A stretch of 64,000 nt of DNA from Thioalkalivibrio sulfidiphilus (GTDB taxonomy: Bacteria > Pseudomonadota > Gammaproteobacteria > Ectothiorhodospirales > Ectothiorhodospiraceae): NCBI RefSeq assembly GCF_000377945.1, contig NZ_KB898929.1, positions 1 through 64,000 on the forward strand, in the 5' to 3' direction. Position 1 is the stretch's first letter; each line of letters starts with the position of its first letter. The notes beneath the pieces were generated by a model. It was not told where the DNA came from. It did no database searches and saw only the letters and a program-made list of their open reading frames with translations. Positions 4,886-46,296 of this stretch are shown here, piece by piece. Made by a program: the position numbers and the translations under genes.

Positions 4886-6319
4886 ATGGAATGGGAAACA
4901 GTCATCGGGCTCGAGGTTCACGCCCAGCTCGCCACCAAGAGTAAGATCTTCTCCGGCGCGTCCACCGCCTACGGCGCGGCGCCCAACACCCAGGCCTGTG
5001 CCATCGACCTGGGCCTGCCCGGCGTGCTGCCGGTGCTCAACCGCGAGGCGGTGCGCATGGCGGTGAAGTTCGGTCTGGCCATCGGTGCGGAGATCTCGCC
5101 GCGCTCGGTGTTCGCGCGCAAGAACTACTTCTATCCCGATCTGCCCAAGGGTTACCAGATCTCCCAGTACGAACTCCCCGTGGTGGGCCTCGGCAAGCTC
5201 GAGATCGAGCTGGAGGACGGCGAGACCAAGACCATCGGCATCACCCGGGCACACCTTGAAGAGGACGCGGGCAAGAGCCTGCACGAGGACTTCCACGGCA
5301 TGAGCGGCATCGATCTCAACCGCGCCGGCACGCCGTTGCTGGAGATCGTCTCCGAGCCGGACATGCGCTCCGCCAAGGAGGCGGTGGCCTATCTGAAGAA
5401 GCTGCACGCCCTGGTGCGCTACCTGGAGATCTGCGACGGCAACATGCAGGAAGGCTCCTTCCGCTGCGATGCCAACGTCTCGGTGCGCCGCAAGGGCACC
5501 GAGAAGTTCGGCACCCGCGCCGAGATCAAGAACATCAACTCCTTCCGCTTCGTGGAGCGCGCCATCAACTACGAGGTGGAGCGCCAGATCGACATCCTGG
5601 AGGGCGGCGGCGCCGTGGTGCAGGAGACGCGTCTCTACGATCCCGACAAGGGCGAGACCCGTTCCATGCGCTCCAAGGAAGAGGCCAACGACTACCGCTA
5701 CTTCCCCGACCCGGACCTGCTGCCGCTGGAGATCGATGCCGGCTTCATCGAGGGCGTGCGCGGTACCCTGCCGGAGTTACCCGACGAGAAGAAGCACCGC
5801 TTCATGACCCACTACGGCCTGTCCGCCTACGACGCCGGCGTGCTCACTGCGAGCCGCGAGATGGGCGACTACTACGAGGCCGTGGTCAAGGCCTGCGGTG
5901 GCCATGCGAAGCTGGCCGCCAACTGGGTCATGGGTGAACTCTCCGCCGCGCTCAACAAGGACAACAAGGAGATCACCGAGAGCCCGGTGTCCGCAGCCGC
6001 CCTGGGCCAGATGCTCGAGCGCATCGAGGACAACACCATCTCCGGCAAGATCGCCAAGGATGTCTTCGAGGCCATGTGGAACGGCGAGGGCAGCGCCGAC
6101 CAGGTGATCGAGAAGAAGGGTCTCAAGCAGATCACCGACACCGGCGCCATCGAGGCCATCATCGACAAGGTCATGGCCGACAACCCCGGCCAGCTGGAGC
6201 AGTACCGCTCCGGCAAGGACAAGCTGTTCGGTTTCTTCGTCGGTCAGGTGATGAAGGCAACGGGCGGCAAGGCGAACCCGGGGCAAGTGAACGATCTGTT
6301 GAAGAAGAAGCTTCAGTAG
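4886..6319 (+). CDS. gatB: Asp-tRNA(Asn)/Glu-tRNA(Gln) amidotransferase subunit B
   Basis: GatB binds and activates the misacylated tRNA, then amidates it with ammonia from GatA. The 477-residue product begins [20 protein letters not shown], the standard start. It contains the signature [20 protein letters not shown] and ends with the tRNA-binding YqeY-like tail ([20 protein letters not shown]). The ATG at 4886 was chosen because upstream codons come from the repeat. An organism with gatCAB usually lacks a direct route to Gln-tRNA or Asn-tRNA, or both. Confidence 0.97.
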
Positions 6320-6412
6320 AACAGTCTCAAGTGGCAAGTCTCAAGTGGCAAGGAACGTCAAAGGCACTGCCCCGGTTTTCCTTGTCACTTGAGACTTGCC
6401 ACTAGCCACTGC
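6320..6412. repeat. Intergenic inverted repeat, AAGTGGCAAGTCTC family (F2), copy 1
   Basis: The left arm (6324-6352) contains AGTCTCAAGTGGCAAG twice. The right arm (6380-6412) reads CCTTGTCACTTGAGACTTGC and onward, its complement. It lies between gatB and hslO and ends 1-2 bp before the hslO ATG. Related copies are at 27136-27178 (one arm) and 41219-41328. Confidence 0.85.
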
Positions 6413-6413
6413 C

Positions 6414-7280
6414 ATGACAGATACCCTCCACCGATTCCTGCTCGAGACCACTAACGTGCGTGGCGAGTGGGTGCACCTGGACGCCACCTGGCAAGCGCTG
6501 CTGGAGCGCTACGCGTATCCGCCGGTGGTGCGCGATCTGCTCGGTCAGGCCCTGGCGGCGGTGGCCCTGCTGTCCGCCACCATCAAGTTCGACGGCTCTC
6601 TGATCCTGCAGGTGACCGGCAATGGGCCGGTGAATCTCCTGGTGGTGCAGGCCAGCGGCCATGGCACGGTGCGCGGTCTGGCGCGCTGGCAGTCGGAGGT
6701 CCCGGCGGGAGACCTGGCCGCGCAGTTCGGCGACGGGCGCATGGTCATGACCATCGATCCGGGCCAGGGCCGGGAGCGTTACCAGGGCATCGTGCCCCTG
6801 GAGGGGGCCAGCCTTTCCGCCGCGCTGGAGGGCTACTTCACCCGTTCGGAACAGTTGCCCACCCGCCTGTGGCTGGCCGCCGATGGCCAGCGCGCGGCGG
6901 GGCTGCTGCTGCAGGCACTGCCCGGCGAGGACCGGGACCCCGATGCCTTCCATCGTGCCGTCACCCTGGCGGATACCCTCAAGGATCAGGAACTGCTGGA
7001 ACTGCCGGTGCAGACCCTGCTGCATCGCCTCTACCACGAGGAGGACGTACGCCTGCTGGACGCCAGCCCGGTGAGTTTCCGTTGCAGCTGTTCCAGGGAT
7101 CGCGTGGCAGACATGCTGCGTGGTCTGGGCAAGGCTGAGCTTCGCGCCATCATGGATCGAGAAGGCCAGGTGGAGGTGCACTGCGAGTTCTGCAACGCCG
7201 GCTACCGCTTCGACGCGGTGGACGTGGAACAACTGTTCACCGAGGGCGAGCCGCCGCCGGGGAGTCGTACGCGGCATTGA
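6414..7280 (+). CDS. hslO: Redox-regulated holdase chaperone Hsp33
   Basis: Hsp33 is a cytoplasmic chaperone switched on by oxidation of a zinc-bound tetra-cysteine centre. The 288-residue protein has the N-terminal substrate-binding core (TIKFDGSLILQVTGNGPVNL) and the C-terminal zinc module. All four cysteines are present: CSC near residue 233 and CEFC near residue 265. ATG 6414 gives MTDTLHRFLLE; six upstream codons belong to the repeat. It lies downstream of gatB on the same strand, but function links it to stress rather than translation. Confidence 0.95.
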   Translation: MTDTLHRFLLETTNVRGEWVHLDATWQALLERYAYPPVVRDLLGQALAAVALLSATIKFDGSLILQVTGNGPVNLLVVQASGHGTVRGLARWQSEVPAGDLAAQFGDGRMVMTIDPGQGRERYQGIVPLEGASLSAALEGYFTRSEQLPTRLWLAADGQRAAGLLLQALPGEDRDPDAFHRAVTLADTLKDQELLELPVQTLLHRLYHEEDVRLLDASPVSFRCSCSRDRVADMLRGLGKAELRAIMDREGQVEVHCEFCNAGYRFDAVDVEQLFTEGEPPPGSRTRH

Positions 7281-7294
7281 AGGGCTTCAGGATT

Positions 7295-7440
7295 TTGCCG
7301 CAGAGGCGCGGAGGCGCAGAGAAATTCTTGAAGGCTCGCAACAAAACATCGTCGGGCAGCTGTAGATAAACAGTTGGCCCGAGATCAGTCGCCTTTTCTC
7401 TCGTATCTCTGCGTCTCCGCGCCTCTGCGGCAGATGTTCA
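7295..7440. repeat. Intergenic inverted repeat, CCGCAGAGGCGCGGAGG family (F4)
   Basis: The left arm, 7299-7322, reads CCGCAGAGGCGCGGAGGCGC and onward. The right arm, 7405-7432, reads TCTCTGCGTCTCCGCGCCTC and onward. The arms are near-perfect complements around a loop of about 80 bases. It sits between the convergent hslO and moeB genes, and no conventional U-tract terminator is seen there. Confidence 0.85.
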
Positions 7441-41339: not shown

Positions 41340-42362
41340 TCACGTCGCTGAGTCCGCCGCAAGGCTCATTCTCTCCATGAGGTAACACAAACAATCCTGC
41401 CTCACCACCCGCTCGTCCAGGGTGAGCATGGAGGGCATCACCGGGCGGCGCAGAATCAGGCGGTCCTGGTGGATGCCGAAGTAGGTCTCGGTGACCTCCT
41501 CGCCGATCTCGTTGCGTGCCTCCACCCCAATGCCGCCGCCGGGGCGGACGCTGCCCAGGGCGGTGCCGGCGGGCAGTTCCCGGAAGTTCATGTGGTCGAT
41601 GTCCGGGTCGAAGCACAGGTCCGCGTCGCCGCGGCTGAAGGCGAAGCTCACCGTCTCGGGGACCTTGACCACCGCCACCGTGTGGAACAGGTCCAGGTCG
41701 TGGGGCGCCACCGGGTGCGTGGGTATCTCCGAGAGCTGCAGGCAGGCGGTGATGTATTCCCGGGCGTGTTCCACGCCGCGCGCATCGCCGGCCTTGCCGC
41801 ATTCCAGGGTCACGGCGGGACACAGCTCGGCGAAGGCCATGGACTGCACGCCCCGGGGGCGCACGAAGTAGACCACGGTGCGTCCGAACAGGGTGGCCAG
41901 CTGCAGGAACGGCGTGTCCAGCCGGTTGATGCAGGCGTAGTGAGGGTTGAGGCCGGTGTTGTTGTGCACGTCCACGCTGGCGAAGGGGCGCAGTTCACCC
42001 ATGCGCTCGGTGACCGCCGCCATGAGCCGGTGCTCCGGGGTGTCGCCGCCCTCGCCGCCGGGCCAGACCCGGTTGTAGTCCGGCTGGCCGTCCAGGCGCC
42101 GCAGGCCGTGGCGGGCGGCGGCCACGTTGCCCACGAACAGGGACAGGCTCCGGGGCAGGCCGCCGGCGGGCGGGTCCCGCAGCAGGGCCTGCACCGCCTC
42201 CAGGCCCGCCGGTTCGTTGCCGTGCAGCAGCACGGAGACGAACAGGGGCTCGGGGCGCCGGCCGGGCAAGTGGATCAGGGTCGGGCCGCCCAGCAGGGCC
42301 TCCAGGTCCGAGGGCCGGGCATCGAGGAATCCCTCGGGCAGGTGGTCCAGTTCCTTCAGCAT
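41340..42362 (-). CDS. Succinylglutamate desuccinylase/aspartoacylase (M14)-family protein
   Basis: This 340-residue zinc carboxypeptidase-like amidohydrolase has the metal motif LLHGNEPAGLEAVQ (H..E), the DYNRVWPGG substrate segment, SVDVHNNTGLNPHYACINR (third His) and VTLECGKAG (catalytic Glu). ATG at 42362 overlaps the upstream GCS2-family gene by 7 bp. The pair suggests that one enzyme forms and the other hydrolyses a related amide or peptide bond. The substrate is unknown. Confidence 0.85.
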   Translation of the reverse strand: MLKELDHLPEGFLDARPSDLEALLGGPTLIHLPGRRPEPLFVSVLLHGNEPAGLEAVQALLRDPPAGGLPRSLSLFVGNVAAARHGLRRLDGQPDYNRVWPGGEGGDTPEHRLMAAVTERMGELRPFASVDVHNNTGLNPHYACINRLDTPFLQLATLFGRTVVYFVRPRGVQSMAFAELCPAVTLECGKAGDARGVEHAREYITACLQLSEIPTHPVAPHDLDLFHTVAVVKVPETVSFAFSRGDADLCFDPDIDHMNFRELPAGTALGSVRPGGGIGVEARNEIGEEVTETYFGIHQDRLILRRPVMPSMLTLDERVVRQDCLCYLMERMSLAADSAT

Positions 42363-43819
42363 GGGGTCTCCCCGGTGGCGGTCTGTGGCACCGGCCAGAG
42401 ATGGACCGGGGTGTCGGTGCACTGCAGGGCCAGGTAGGCGTGCACCAGGGCGTGGAAGTCCGGGCCATGGGTGGCCACGAAGCGCCGCGCCCAGCTGGCG
42501 CCGTTCTGACCGCTGTCCACCCGGGCGCGCACGATGTCCAGGTAGCGGTCGGTGTCGTCGGCGTCCAGGCCCAGGCGTTCGAGGCCCCGCTGGGCCATGG
42601 GTAGCAGTTCCTCCAGGATCAGGGAGCGCACCGGACGGCTACGTCCGGCGGGCCATTCCACGTGGGCGTCGAGCCCGAAGCGGGCCGCCTGGTAGAAGTT
42701 GTCCCGGGCCTTCGAGAAGCCCATCAGCCCCTCCGCGCCGCCGGGGGTGGTCACCAGTTCTTCCACCAGGCCGTAGAAGAAGGCAGCGCTCGCCACGCTG
42801 TCGGCCAGGGTCGGGCCCGCGGGCACCACCCGGTGCTCGATGCGGATGTGGGGGCGGCCCTGGTCGTCGAAGCCGATCAGGGGCCGGTTCCAGCGCCAGA
42901 TGGTGCCGTTGTGCAGGCGCAGGTGGCTGAACCGGGACGGGGGATCGTCGAAGCGGATGGGCAGCAGCACGGGGAAGTGCGCCAGGTTCTCCTCGAAGCA
43001 CTCCAGGATGGATTCCCGGGCGAAGCCGGAACCGAAGCTCACCCGGCGCAGGGGGCCCCGGGCCGCGCCCTCGAAGCCGCCCACCTCCACCGCCTGTTCG
43101 AACACCGGAATGCGGGTCTCGTCCCAGAGGTCCTTGCCGAACAGGTAGGGGGCGTTGGCGGACAGGGCCACCATGGGCGCGCTGGCCAGGATGGAGGCGT
43201 TGTAGACCTTGTGGGCCACGGCGATGGGGGTCTGCAGGTGGATCTGAAAGGAGGTGGTGGCCGCCTCCAGCATCACGTCGTGATGTTCGTGGTGCAGGTG
43301 CTCCCGGCCCACGATGTCCAGTTTCAGCGGGCGACCCTGGCGGGAACGCACCACCTGGTCGTTGAGCGCCCGGTAGCGGTTCATGTCCGACATGTTGGCC
43401 AGGCACAGGTGCTCCGGGCGCAGGGTGGGCAGGATGCCGGTGAGCACCAGCTCGGCATCGCAGGCCCGGGCGGTCTGCCTGGCCTTCGCCCAGGTCTCGC
43501 CCATCTCCCGGTGCAGGTCCGAGAGCACGCTGCCGGTCAGTGACCGGGCGCTGGTGTTGAGCTCCACGTTGAAACGGGCCAGTTCAGGGCTCGCCAGGGG
43601 GTGCTTGAAGCGTTCCAGGAAGGCCTGGTTCACCGGGGCGGGTTCGTCGTGCCCGTCCACCAGCCAGGCCTCGATCTCGAAGCCGGCCACGGGGTGGCCG
43701 TCATCGAAGCGTCCGGCGGCCTCCAGGTCCCGGGCCAGGCGGGTCTCCTCGGCCAGGCGCTCGTGGAAGCGCGCGAAGTCCTGGTCGCTGAAACGGGTGT
43801 TCTGGATTTCCTGGCCCAA
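42356..43819 (-). CDS. GCS2-family carboxylate-amine ligase (glutamate-cysteine-ligase-like)
   Basis: The 487-residue protein has the GCS2 landmarks: VAGFEIEAWLVD (Glu motif), FNVELNTSARSLTG, LGANMSD-like LANMSDMNRYRALNDQVVRS and TTSFQIHLQTPIAVAHKVYN. The family includes glutamate-cysteine ligases and other ATP-dependent amide-forming enzymes. Because it overlaps an M14 hydrolase gene, glutathione synthesis is not assured. It is preceded by an acidic-tail protein gene 41 bp upstream. Confidence 0.85.
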   Translation of the reverse strand: MGQEIQNTRFSDQDFARFHERLAEETRLARDLEAAGRFDDGHPVAGFEIEAWLVDGHDEPAPVNQAFLERFKHPLASPELARFNVELNTSARSLTGSVLSDLHREMGETWAKARQTARACDAELVLTGILPTLRPEHLCLANMSDMNRYRALNDQVVRSRQGRPLKLDIVGREHLHHEHHDVMLEAATTSFQIHLQTPIAVAHKVYNASILASAPMVALSANAPYLFGKDLWDETRIPVFEQAVEVGGFEGAARGPLRRVSFGSGFARESILECFEENLAHFPVLLPIRFDDPPSRFSHLRLHNGTIWRWNRPLIGFDDQGRPHIRIEHRVVPAGPTLADSVASAAFFYGLVEELVTTPGGAEGLMGFSKARDNFYQAARFGLDAHVEWPAGRSRPVRSLILEELLPMAQRGLERLGLDADDTDRYLDIVRARVDSGQNGASWARRFVATHGPDFHALVHAYLALQCTDTPVHLWPVPQTATGETPC

Positions 43820-43860: not shown

Positions 43861-44322
43861 TCAGTCGTCGTCTTGTTCGTCGTCATCGTCCAGGGGTTCG
43901 TCATACTGGGCCTCCAGCATGTCGCCCCAGAGTGCCTCGTGGTGTTCCAGGAACACCAGCAGGCGGTGGCGGAAGTCCAGCAGTTCCTGCTCGAAGGCCT
44001 TAAAGTCGTCACCGCCCTCCAGGCCCCGGACGCCCTGTTCCACCTGGTTGAGGGCATCGCGCAGGTTGAGACACGCACCCATGGCGCCCTTGACCCGCTC
44101 CCGGGGGTGGGGGATCCAGGCCCGGTCGCTGACCACGGAGCGCAGGTTCTCGCCCAGTTCCAGGAAGCGCTTGCGCAGCCGGGGCATGGCGCCCAGCTTG
44201 CTGCTGCGCAGGTCGCTCCACACCAGGGCCTCCATGAGCCGGGCCCAGCCTGCGCGCAGGGCCTGCACCTGCTCCGGGTCGAAGGCGAAGGCACGTTGCA
44301 TCTGTTCGGGTTCAAAGGCCAT
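43861..44322 (-). CDS. Hypothetical helical protein with Asp-rich tail
   Basis: The 153-residue product is predicted mostly helical (MAFEPEQMQRAFAFDPEQVQ; LLDFRHRLLVFLEHHEALWG) and ends in a run of Asp/Glu (LDDDDEQDDD). No family is recognised. ATG at 44322 was chosen because the earlier part of the frame overlaps the divergent sigma-factor gene. It is probably the first gene of a unit with the GCS2 and M14 genes. Confidence 0.65.
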   Translation of the reverse strand: MAFEPEQMQRAFAFDPEQVQALRAGWARLMEALVWSDLRSSKLGAMPRLRKRFLELGENLRSVVSDRAWIPHPRERVKGAMGACLNLRDALNQVEQGVRGLEGGDDFKAFEQELLDFRHRLLVFLEHHEALWGDMLEAQYDEPLDDDDEQDDD

Positions 44323-44366
44323 GGGCGGGTCGGGTTCCGTTTTGTGAGGCAGTACGAAAAATACCT

Positions 44367-44392
44367 GGAATAAGGCTTCCGGCTGTGGCGTC
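44367..44392 (+). promoter_or_regulatory. Candidate ECF-type promoter before the sigma-factor gene
   Basis: GGAATA (44367-44372) and CGTC (44389-44392) are separated by 16 bp, the GGAA-N16-CGTC pattern common for ECF sigma factors. They lie 33 bp upstream of the sigma gene, compatible with autoregulation. The rest of the -10 region reads CCTAA. Confidence 0.4.
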
Positions 44393-44424
44393 CTAAGTGA
44401 CAGCAACGATCCACAGGAACATCC

Positions 44425-44988
44425 ATGGCCGTCATCAACTGGCTGCTGCAAAGGCGACTGAAGAACCGCATCGCGGATCTCAGGCCGCAATTATATCGGA
44501 CCGCCTATGCCTGGTGTCATGACCCGGCGCGGGCCGATGATCTGGTGCACGAGGCGCTGGTCAAGGCCATCTCCCGTCTGCGCACCCTGCAGGACGAGGA
44601 TGCGCTCAAGCCCTGGTTGTTCCGCATCATGACCAATTGCCACCGGGACTGGCTGCGCCGGCAGAAGGACACGGTGGATGTGTACGAGGTGGACCTGCCC
44701 TGCGAGGACTGCCCGGAGATGAATGCCGAACGGGCCGCCACGGTGAAGAGCGTGCGCGAGGCGGTGCGCGGCCTGAGCGACGACCAGCGCAAGGTGCTCA
44801 CCCTGGTGGACCTGGAAGGCTTTTCTTACAGCGAGGTGGCCGAGATCCTGGAGGTCCCTATCGGCACGGTCATGAGCCGCCTGAGCCGGGCTCGCCAGCA
44901 GCTCAAGCGCGAGCTGCTGCGCAACGAACGCAAGGCCGGCGCCGCAACCAGTCTCAAGCTCGTAAGGAACCAGCATGAAAACGGATAA
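44425..44988 (+). CDS. ECF-type RNA polymerase sigma factor
   Basis: The 187-residue sigma70-family protein has region 2 (LYRTAYAWCHDPARADDLVH, then EALVKAISRLRTLQDEDALK and PWLFRIMTNCHRDWLRR). Region 4 follows (LSDDQRKVLTLVDLEGFSYS, then EVAEILEVPIGTVMSRLSRA). The stop lies inside the next gene (14-bp overlap), which encodes a membrane anti-sigma factor with a DsrE-like domain. The three-gene set with the following secreted DsrE-like protein forms a coherent signalling module. Confidence 0.93.
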   Translation: MAVINWLLQRRLKNRIADLRPQLYRTAYAWCHDPARADDLVHEALVKAISRLRTLQDEDALKPWLFRIMTNCHRDWLRRQKDTVDVYEVDLPCEDCPEMNAERAATVKSVREAVRGLSDDQRKVLTLVDLEGFSYSEVAEILEVPIGTVMSRLSRARQQLKRELLRNERKAGAATSLKLVRNQHENG

Positions 44989-45715
44989 GCCCAGCGAAGA
45001 GATCCTCAACGCCTTCGTGGACGGCGAATTCTGCCCCGAGGAGCGCCTGGCCACCCTCAAGCAGATCTCCGCGGATGAGCAGCTGAGCCGGGAGGTCTGC
45101 GATCTCTGCCAGCTCAAGGAGATGGTGAACCTGGCCTACGAGCGGGTGCCGCCGCCGCCCCTGCGCCATGCCCGGGGTCGCAGCGCCCGGGGCGGACTGC
45201 TCGGTCCTGCCGCCGCCGCGGTGGTGATGATGCTCTCGGTAGCCGGCATCACCGGCGTGGGGCTGAGCCTCCAGGAGCCCGCGCCGCAGACCGTGCGTGT
45301 CAGCACGGCGGATCTCAGCCAGCCCCTGCACGGCACGATGCGCGAAGCCAGCCGCATCCTGCTGCATGTGAATACCGCGGACGTGGAACGCATCGCCAAC
45401 ATGCTCGACGAGGTGGAACTGCTCATGGCTGCCGCCGAGCAGCAGGGTGTGGCCCTGCAGATCCAGGTGGTGACCCATGGCGAGGGTCTGGCCCTGCTGC
45501 GCGAGGACGTCTCGCCCTTTCCACAGCGGGTGGCCATGCTCGCGGAACGTTTTCCTCACCACCTGAGTTTCACCGCCTGCCTCAACACCATCGAGCGTCT
45601 GCGGCGGGAAGAGAACATCCACGTGCGCCTGCTGCCCGCGGCGCAGGTGATCAATTCTGGCGTGGCGGAGGTGATCCGTCGCCAGTCCCAGGGCTGGGCC
45701 TATATCCAGGTCTGA
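44975..45715 (+). CDS. Transmembrane anti-sigma factor with periplasmic DsrE-like domain
   Basis: The 246-residue protein reads in three parts. Residues 1-62 are an anti-sigma-type cytoplasmic domain (SEEILNAFVDGEFCPEERLA; REVCDLCQL with CxxC). Residues 74-96 are a membrane helix (GLLGPAAAAVVMMLSVAGIT). From residue 115 a DsrE-like fold follows: ILLHVNTADVERI, QVVTHGEGLALL, SFTACLNTIERL (the likely reactive Cys), INSGVAEVI, QGWAYIQV. These motifs match the secreted protein encoded next (VVMHGAGLNLL, CNNTI, SGVA, QGYTYIKP). The inferred role is to hold the sigma factor until its outer domain senses a sulfur or redox signal. Confidence 0.88.
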   Translation: MKTDKPSEEILNAFVDGEFCPEERLATLKQISADEQLSREVCDLCQLKEMVNLAYERVPPPPLRHARGRSARGGLLGPAAAAVVMMLSVAGITGVGLSLQEPAPQTVRVSTADLSQPLHGTMREASRILLHVNTADVERIANMLDEVELLMAAAEQQGVALQIQVVTHGEGLALLREDVSPFPQRVAMLAERFPHHLSFTACLNTIERLRREENIHVRLLPAAQVINSGVAEVIRRQSQGWAYIQV

Positions 45716-45792
45716 CCCCGGGAATCAGCAAGGCAGTAGCCCCTGTAAGCATCAACCATAACCATTAGATCGAGTGAAGGAGTGGAGCAGTC

Positions 45793-46236
45793 ATGAAAAA
45801 GATTCTTGTATCCCTGATGGCCCTGGCCGCCCTGATGATGGTCCTGCCCGGCACCGCCCTGGCCGTGGATTACGGCAAGCAGAAGGTGGTTTACCACATC
45901 AACGGCGGTGATCCCCAGCAGAACCAGCTGGCCATGCGCAACATCCAGAACCACATCAATGCCGTGGGCGCCGAGAACATGGACATCAAGGTGGTCATGC
46001 ACGGTGCCGGCCTGAACCTGCTGATCAACGCCAAGGAAAATGCCGATCTGCGCGCCAGCGTGGACAACCTGAAGATGCAGAACGTGGAGTTCCAGATCTG
46101 CAACAACACCATCGTGGGTCGCAAGCTGGACCTGGCCAATGATCTGTACGACGCCAAGCCCGCCGACGTGGTCCCCAGCGGCGTGGCCCACCTGTCCTAC
46201 CTGCAGGCCCAGGGTTACACCTACATCAAGCCCTGA
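45793..46236 (+). CDS. Secreted DsrE/DsrF-like protein
   Basis: The 147-residue product has a cleavable signal peptide (MKKILVSLMALAALMMVLPG, probable cut after TALA) and one DsrE-like domain with VVYHINGGDPQQNQLAMRNI, VVMHGAGLNLL and VEFQICNNTI (single Cys at the DsrE active position). DsrE proteins move sulfur as persulfide in the cytoplasm; an exported form is less usual. It lies 77 bp after the anti-sigma gene and ends at a clear terminator. It may be the ligand, target or decoy of the sensor. Confidence 0.9.
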   Translation: MKKILVSLMALAALMMVLPGTALAVDYGKQKVVYHINGGDPQQNQLAMRNIQNHINAVGAENMDIKVVMHGAGLNLLINAKENADLRASVDNLKMQNVEFQICNNTIVGRKLDLANDLYDAKPADVVPSGVAHLSYLQAQGYTYIKP

Positions 46237-46270: not shown

Positions 46271-46296
46271 AGCCCGGGCATGTCCCGGGCTTTTTT
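46271..46296 (+). terminator. Rho-independent terminator after the DsrE-like gene
   Basis: Stem AGCCCGGG / CCCGGGCT (46271-46278 and 46284-46291), loop CATGT, then a run of T to 46296. It closes the sigma / anti-sigma / DsrE unit. Confidence 0.85.

Follow-up and report, generated by a model that had tools for sequence, protein, structure and literature searches.

Three consecutive genes in DNA from Thioalkalivibrio sulfidiphilus encode an ECF sigma factor, a membrane protein with a predicted DsrE-fold outer domain and a secreted DsrE-fold protein, and raise the question of what such a system might sense outside the inner membrane and which genes it might control. Published studies describe the sensing of external sulfur by regulators of sulfur oxidisers as poorly understood (PMC11582611, PMC10451225). 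Control of sox genes is otherwise known from a two-component system acting with sigma-54 (PMC6335251) and from the repressor SoxR (PMC10451225). The locus lies in a stretch of 64,000 nucleotides, referred to here as the window; its relevant features are as follows.

44367..44394, +, predicted operon promoter GGAATAAGGCTTCCGGCTGTGGCGTCCT (-35 GGAATAA at 44367-44373, -10 CGTCC at 44389-44393)
44425..44988, +, ECF sigma factor, 187 aa (Pfam Sigma70_r2 and Sigma70_r4_2)
44975..45715, +, membrane anti-sigma factor with DsrE-fold outer domain (the fusion protein), 246 aa (alignment, sigma-adjacent homologues, AlphaFold2 model)
44975..45184, +, cytoplasmic helical part of the fusion, residues 1-70, presumed sigma-binding domain (helices in the model, Cys counts, weak zf-HC2 matches)
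45209..45265, +, transmembrane helix of the fusion, residues ~79-97 (hydropathy; single hydrophobic stretch)
45347..45712, +, outer DsrE-fold domain of the fusion, residues 125-246 (model and PDB match)
45578..45580, +, codon of Cys202 in the outer domain (invariant in homologues)
45793..46236, +, secreted DsrE-fold protein, 147 aa (Pfam DsrE; model; signal sequence at residues ~1-24)
46099..46101, +, codon of Cys103, the counterpart of Cys202 and sole Cys in the secreted protein (homologue counts; BLASTP alignment)
46272..46296, +, likely intrinsic terminator of the operon, GCCCGGGCATGTCCCGGGCTTTTTT (read by eye from the sequence)

The three genes follow one another on the + strand (44425-46236) as open reading frames of the window, the sigma and fusion genes overlapping by 14 bp and the secreted DsrE gene starting 77 bp past the end of the fusion gene. 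Domain assignments agree with the trio of sigma factor, anti-sigma factor and secreted protein that an earlier note, made from the letters of the window, had proposed. The sigma protein matches Sigma70_r2 over residues 17-81 (E 1e-13) and Sigma70_r4_2 over residues 110-160 (E 2e-17), and so possesses sigma-70 regions 2 and 4 only, within the length of ~190 aa by which ECF factors are recognised; against the NCBIfam equivalogs all of its scores lay under their cut-offs. The Arg-rich flank on the N side of the membrane helix of the fusion protein suggests an N-in/C-out topology, whilst sequence reading and hydropathy identify a Sec-type signal sequence at the N-terminus of the third protein. An Rfam scan of the whole window returned two tRNAs and nothing else. 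Near the operon, on the - strand at 41340-43819, are a GCS2-like gene of the glutamate-cysteine-ligase family and an AstE/AspA-like gene, and genes belonging to these two clusters also border the sigma locus of L039 and that of L095, the latter from another family. Directly upstream (43861-44490, -) is a 209 aa open reading frame with no Pfam match, whose true start is probably further in, since the listed start overlaps the promoter and the start of the sigma gene.

Both exported domains were examined for the DsrE fold that the earlier note had ascribed to them. The secreted protein scores 39.9 bits against Pfam DsrE (PF02635), over the cut-off of 22.7, and the outer domain of the window fusion 13.7 bits, under it; 21 of 24 fusion homologues match the same family at E values up to 1 (best 4e-5). 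Structure models, for which alignments of window and related-locus proteins served as input (AlphaFold2 for the fusion), were of high confidence for the secreted protein and likewise for the outer domain, with pLDDT mostly >90. The best PDB match of both models is MTH1491 (1l1s; TMt 0.89 each, with Z 17.4 for the outer domain), followed by ST0148 (2pd2) and then by YchN and the DsrE subunits of DsrEFH and TusBCD; MTH1491 also has conserved C-NT, SGV and QGW-YI motifs in common with the window domains. Given the high-confidence models and these PDB matches, the predicted DsrE fold of both domains can be regarded as firmly assigned. The outer domain and the secreted protein align with each other in BLASTP (E 1e-8, 29% identity over 128 aa), and on this comparison are homologous beyond chance, as expected for the paralogues that they had been proposed to be. 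In a tree of these proteins, from which only two groupings were used because it took in outgroup rows on both strands that were partly nonsense, the operon-type secreted proteins group together (support 98/93), and the DsrE domains of the anti-sigma proteins split weakly from the secreted ones (59% bootstrap). MTH1491, ST0148, YchN, the DsrE of DsrEFH and TusD have the same fold as the window domains but are free-standing proteins. DsrEFH and TusBCD are cytoplasmic, whereas the DsrE domains of the window are exported or membrane-anchored.

Conservation across homologues is stronger for the exported than for the cytoplasmic cysteines. Cys202 is present in 96 of 96 distinct fusion proteins, D16 and W241 are also invariant in these and H131 is nearly so, and the position of Cys103 is occupied by Cys in 71 of 72 secreted homologues. 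The cytoplasmic part of the window fusion does contain the C42-x2-C45 motif from which the earlier note had described a cytoplasmic CxxC domain, but C45 is found in only 5/96 fusion proteins (C42 in 87/96), and the motif, judged from this alignment, is a local feature of the window protein and is not supported as a working part of the family. Redox sensing through this CxxC was considered and ruled out, the second Cys being missing in 91 of the 96 homologues. Neither is the Hx3Cx2C zinc signature present: the window protein lacks a His at the fourth position ahead of C42, and C45 is as rare as stated. In the model the N-terminal part forms helices at residues 8-15, 21-33 and 35-54; zf-HC2 is touched, weakly, by 4 of 24 fusion homologues (best E 0.004), and among the matches listed for these helices there is no solved anti-sigma structure, which is not evidence against a sigma-binding role. 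On the grounds of ECF biology, gene adjacency and the weak zf-HC2 matches, this part is presumed to bind the sigma factor. The fusion gene is co-oriented with, and adjoins, an ECF sigma gene and encodes one membrane helix, as is usual for class I anti-sigma factors, e.g. RseA, RskA and RsiW (PMC7406223), which similarly comprise an N-terminal helical cytoplasmic part, one membrane helix and an outer domain; it is distinguished from these by the DsrE fold of its outer domain and by the absence of Hx3Cx2C, a motif that is optional in that class.

The arrangement is widespread, and the gene order that the earlier note had expected to recur in other genomes is not unique to this one. The closest named relatives are Thioalkalivibrio denitrificans and a Thioalkalivibrio MAG; matches to the fusion, some of them partial, occur in 35 of 47 genomes of the window's order, and full-length fusions in about 66 of 369 genomes sampled from its class, the Gammaproteobacteria, across many families (a figure counted by hand from the results table). 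Several relatives come from chemolithotrophic sulfur oxidisers. In a phylum-wide sample full-length matches were confined to the class, those from other classes covering the DsrE part and sometimes extending into the membrane segment; the latter matches (L309-L315 and others) are DsrE proteins resembling the outer domain, with no anti-sigma part.

Genes at the homologous loci were called with a codon score, since antisense reading frames in GC-rich DNA mislead calls based on length. A sigma gene adjoins the fusion in every locus read, and 37 of 43 loci in one set and 36 of 52 in a second also have a neighbouring secreted DsrE gene, the two sets overlapping and both having been counted by hand. 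This gene is placed in one of two ways, i.e. downstream in the same operon, or divergently upstream and then usually followed by a porin-like gene; the porin cluster is found in 16 loci (PF07396 at 45.5 bits in L094; L085 encodes a porin-like protein without a Pfam match). Tandem sigma/fusion pairs occur in L042 and L043, where the operon-type secreted DsrE gene follows the second pair only and the other kind of secreted DsrE gene is present as well, in divergent orientation. Four loci have SoxB-like, sub-cut-off periplasmic hydrolase genes beside the sigma locus (L093:1-1362, L108:2789-4960, L120:4494-6623, L041:6307-8094); these represent an undescribed relative of SoxB, and in L093, L108 and L120 they are divergent and each has its own promoter copy. 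Phosphate uptake, to which the Pfam names Porin_O_P and 5'-nucleotidase pointed, was not adopted as the theme: TIGR04486 gives the nucleotidase-like proteins their highest scores, as relatives of SoxB (101-180 bits, vs 69-83 for the next family), and the annotated unlinked targets described below include sox genes.

In nearly all homologous loci the sigma gene is preceded by GGAATAA and CGTC(T), with a spacing, counted after GGAATA, of 15 or 16 bases in 73 of 76 matches when spacings of 10-17 were allowed. Divergent loci carry the element on both strands, one copy directed toward the sigma gene and the other toward the secreted-DsrE/porin operon; in L093, L108 and L120 the second, divergent copy points to the gene of the SoxB-like hydrolase. 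A search for GGAATAA-N14/15-CGTCT in 40 fusion-positive genomes gave 72 sites, compared with 8 for the reversed pattern (summed by hand), whereas 40 fusion-negative, soxB-positive genomes of the class gave 11 sites against 15 for the reversed control, which indicates that the element goes with the sigma/fusion system. Around half of the 72 sites sit at the sigma locus. The genome of the window itself has the strict motif only at a paralogous locus and one other place, and seven matches genome-wide to GGAATA-N15/16-CGTC. This second, divergent sigma/fusion pair (L081, G000:C19:46000-60000; sigma 6016-6651, fusion 6651-7406) is located beside a glnE-like gene and has GGAATAA-N-CATCT elements on both strands, at C19:51878 (-) and 51972 (+); the variant -10 might insulate the two systems of this genome from each other.

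The DNA around the unlinked sites of the 40 fusion-positive genomes was read and many of the downstream genes were annotated. Shortly downstream of such sites are secreted DsrE genes (L165, L167, L170, L179), soxB (L174, L178, L182, L184), soxX, followed by a SoxY-like gene (L182, again) and soxA-soxX (L185), as well as genes for a Sulf_transp/YeeE-type transporter (L173), a thioredoxin-like protein (L194) and a SoxH-related MBL protein that scores under the NCBIfam cut-off (L201). Several other unlinked sites have no sulfur gene nearby, in line with the rate given by the reversed control. On computational grounds, the assignment of the sox and secreted DsrE genes to the regulon of the sigma factor is well supported. 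DUF302 proteins, with no known role in this context, are encoded downstream of the element in two genomes (L189:2852-3316, L200:2923-3444). In L192 (239-1256; G377:C49) the same promoter element precedes an ECF-like gene and, behind it, a short anti-sigma-like gene that lacks a DsrE domain, an arrangement in which a regulatory cascade is possible.

Co-occurrence connects the system with Sox thiosulfate oxidation more generally. The soxB gene is present in 65 of 66 fusion-positive but 85 of 303 fusion-negative genomes of the class (Fisher p 5e-29), a comparison that assumes one identical 369-genome sample for the fusion and soxB searches (the counts agree) and in which p-values overstate the significance, because the sampled genomes are related rather than independent. 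SoxB (TIGR04486) was similarly found in 58 of 59 chosen fusion-positive genomes; one fusion-positive genome, G101, is without soxB. Of 51 fusion-positive genomes, 18 have a site no more than 400 bp from soxB, as against 0 of 21 fusion-negative ones (p 7e-4); the other 33 fusion-positive genomes, the majority, have no recognisable site just before soxB. A rank test of the best site score near soxB, restricted to the additional loci, was not significant (p 0.07), and is biased downward since half of its fusion-positive loci had been picked for want of an exact site; in fusion-negative L290 and L297 a site that scores well is found at a distance of 1.7-2.7 kb from soxB. In the window's own genome, GGAATAGCCCGCGGGCTTCGAACGTCCT stands 151 bp before soxB (G000:C52:349-2100) and is one of just seven matches that the looser motif GGAATA-N15/16-CGTC has across the genome. 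In two genomes (L110, L116) the sigma/anti-sigma pair is immediately followed by a soxXYZAB-like cluster; SoxB of L116 scores 879 bits, and the identification of SoxX, Y, Z and A relies solely on their size, order and sequence. The earlier note had suggested that the operon ties extracytoplasmic sulfur chemistry to transcription; its link to sulfur metabolism stands, and takes the specific form of a Sox regulon through the promoter sites and the co-occurrence, neither promoter, regulon nor Sox link having featured in that first reading.

We consider it probable that the locus encodes an autoregulated ECF sigma/membrane anti-sigma switch that couples periplasmic sulfur chemistry to transcription of Sox genes. 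In the resting state the anti-sigma factor would keep sigma at the inner membrane; reduced sulfur species in the periplasm would be sensed by the DsrE-fold outer domain, most likely via the invariant Cys202 (as a persulfide or thiosulfonate) or by exchange with the secreted DsrE partner, and sigma would then be released. The freed sigma would transcribe from GGAATAA-N14/15-CGTCT promoters, including that of its own operon with the secreted DsrE gene and, depending on the genome, those of soxB, soxXY.. or soxAX, further secreted DsrE genes, an OprO/P-like porin, a SoxB-like hydrolase and a YeeE-type sulfur transporter, of which the porin and transporter would suit uptake of sulfur anions. We infer the direction of control, the ligand, the role of Cys202, the pairing of the DsrE proteins and the mode of sigma release as follows: sigma binding by the N-terminal part would mean that release turns the promoters on; DsrE-family chemistry, in which Cys thiosulfonates are described (e.g. 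PMC4175335), suggests that the outer domain may read sulfane sulfur or thiosulfate through Cys202; and co-regulation, together with the oligomers of the family, suggests that secreted DsrE may meet the outer domain as messenger or as feedback. The earlier note had proposed that the two DsrE domains might dimerise or compete for a persulfide or thiol signal. A bolder version, in which the DsrE-fold domain was recruited as a periplasmic sensor that reads sulfane sulfur or thiosulfate directly, the soluble DsrE protein is a sulfur-loaded messenger and the system is the main Sox switch across many families of Gammaproteobacteria, is advanced tentatively, as a reading that could well be correct but on which we would not rely.

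Other accounts were weighed against this switch. The outer domain might be a docking platform without sulfur chemistry, its Cys being mainly structural and sigma release being set by occupancy with secreted DsrE, as negative feedback or as a carrier-loaded ligand. Such docking would fit the presence of a secreted DsrE gene beside the fusion in most loci, and under the same promoter even when unlinked, and solved structures of the DsrE family include hetero-oligomers, e.g. DsrEFH and TusBCD; however, pure docking would not need an invariant outer Cys, and around one third of the loci in the 52-locus set have no secreted DsrE gene beside the fusion, so that we think this account unlikely.

Alternatively, sigma might answer toxic sulfane sulfur, polysulfide or sulfite, or thiol or oxidative damage to the envelope, the sox genes being induced for removal rather than as an energy pathway of choice. 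The ECF26 sigmas of Sinorhizobium meliloti respond to sulfite made from thiosulfate or taurine (PMC3511301), and the unlinked sites before the thioredoxin-like and SoxH-related MBL proteins would be in keeping with a stress response, but the genes at the core of the regulon are soxB, soxX and soxAX, several relatives come from chemolithotrophic sulfur oxidisers, and we think a primarily protective function improbable. The association with Sox might instead be indirect, with fusion and Sox frequent in the same sulfur-oxidising lineages and the chief target of sigma being its own envelope operon. This could be argued from the sigma/fusion loci without any adjoining sulfur gene, several of which lie beside glnE, pilT-like or groEL genes, and from the scarcity of strict and looser motifs in the window's own genome. 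Against this, sites directly precede soxB, soxX and soxA in different families as well as in the genome of the window, and the motif is not enriched in fusion-negative, soxB-positive genomes; we therefore regard an indirect association as very unlikely.

The switch that we favour has precedents, ECF control of sulfur metabolism being already described in S. meliloti (PMC3511301) and Arcobacter butzleri (PMC3445524). RpoE1/RpoE4 of S. meliloti (ECF26; PMC3511301) likewise consist of an ECF sigma with an adjacent anti-sigma gene, are autoregulated and control periplasmic oxidation of a sulfur compound upon activation by thiosulfate and taurine; unlike the window system they target sorT and their own operons, not sox, with sulfite as the proposed signal, and the paper reports neither a DsrE domain in the anti-sigma factor nor a DsrE partner. 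Sigma-2 of A. butzleri (PMC3445524) raises sox expression and sulfur oxidation, as judged from mutants and transcriptomics, but has a broad regulon (nap, nrf, hydrogenase, dct), and the text searched mentions neither DsrE, nor a porin, nor a GGAATAA promoter. TspS/TspR of Acidithiobacillus caldus (PMC6335251) also ties envelope-side sensing, with thiosulfate as proposed signal, to transcription of a sox cluster, but is a histidine kinase and response regulator acting with sigma-54 rather than an ECF/anti-sigma pair. In Hyphomicrobium denitrificans the SoxR repressor and SoxT transporters provide sulfane-sulfur-responsive control of sulfur oxidation and include a YeeE-like protein (PMC10451225, PMC11582611); SoxR is a cytoplasmic repressor that needs sulfur import, whereas the window system would read sulfur outside the membrane. 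Searches of the open-access literature (DsrE with ECF or anti-sigma, ECF with sox, and the motif) found no description of an anti-sigma factor with a DsrE domain or of a GGAATAA promoter.

The sigma/fusion system is thus a good candidate for extracytoplasmic sulfur sensing in many sulfur-oxidising bacteria, for which a concrete sensor, promoter and list of targets can now be proposed across a large set of Gammaproteobacteria. The DsrE sulfur-carrier fold would join the outer domains with which anti-sigma factors sense signals, and exported DsrE proteins would gain a possible role.
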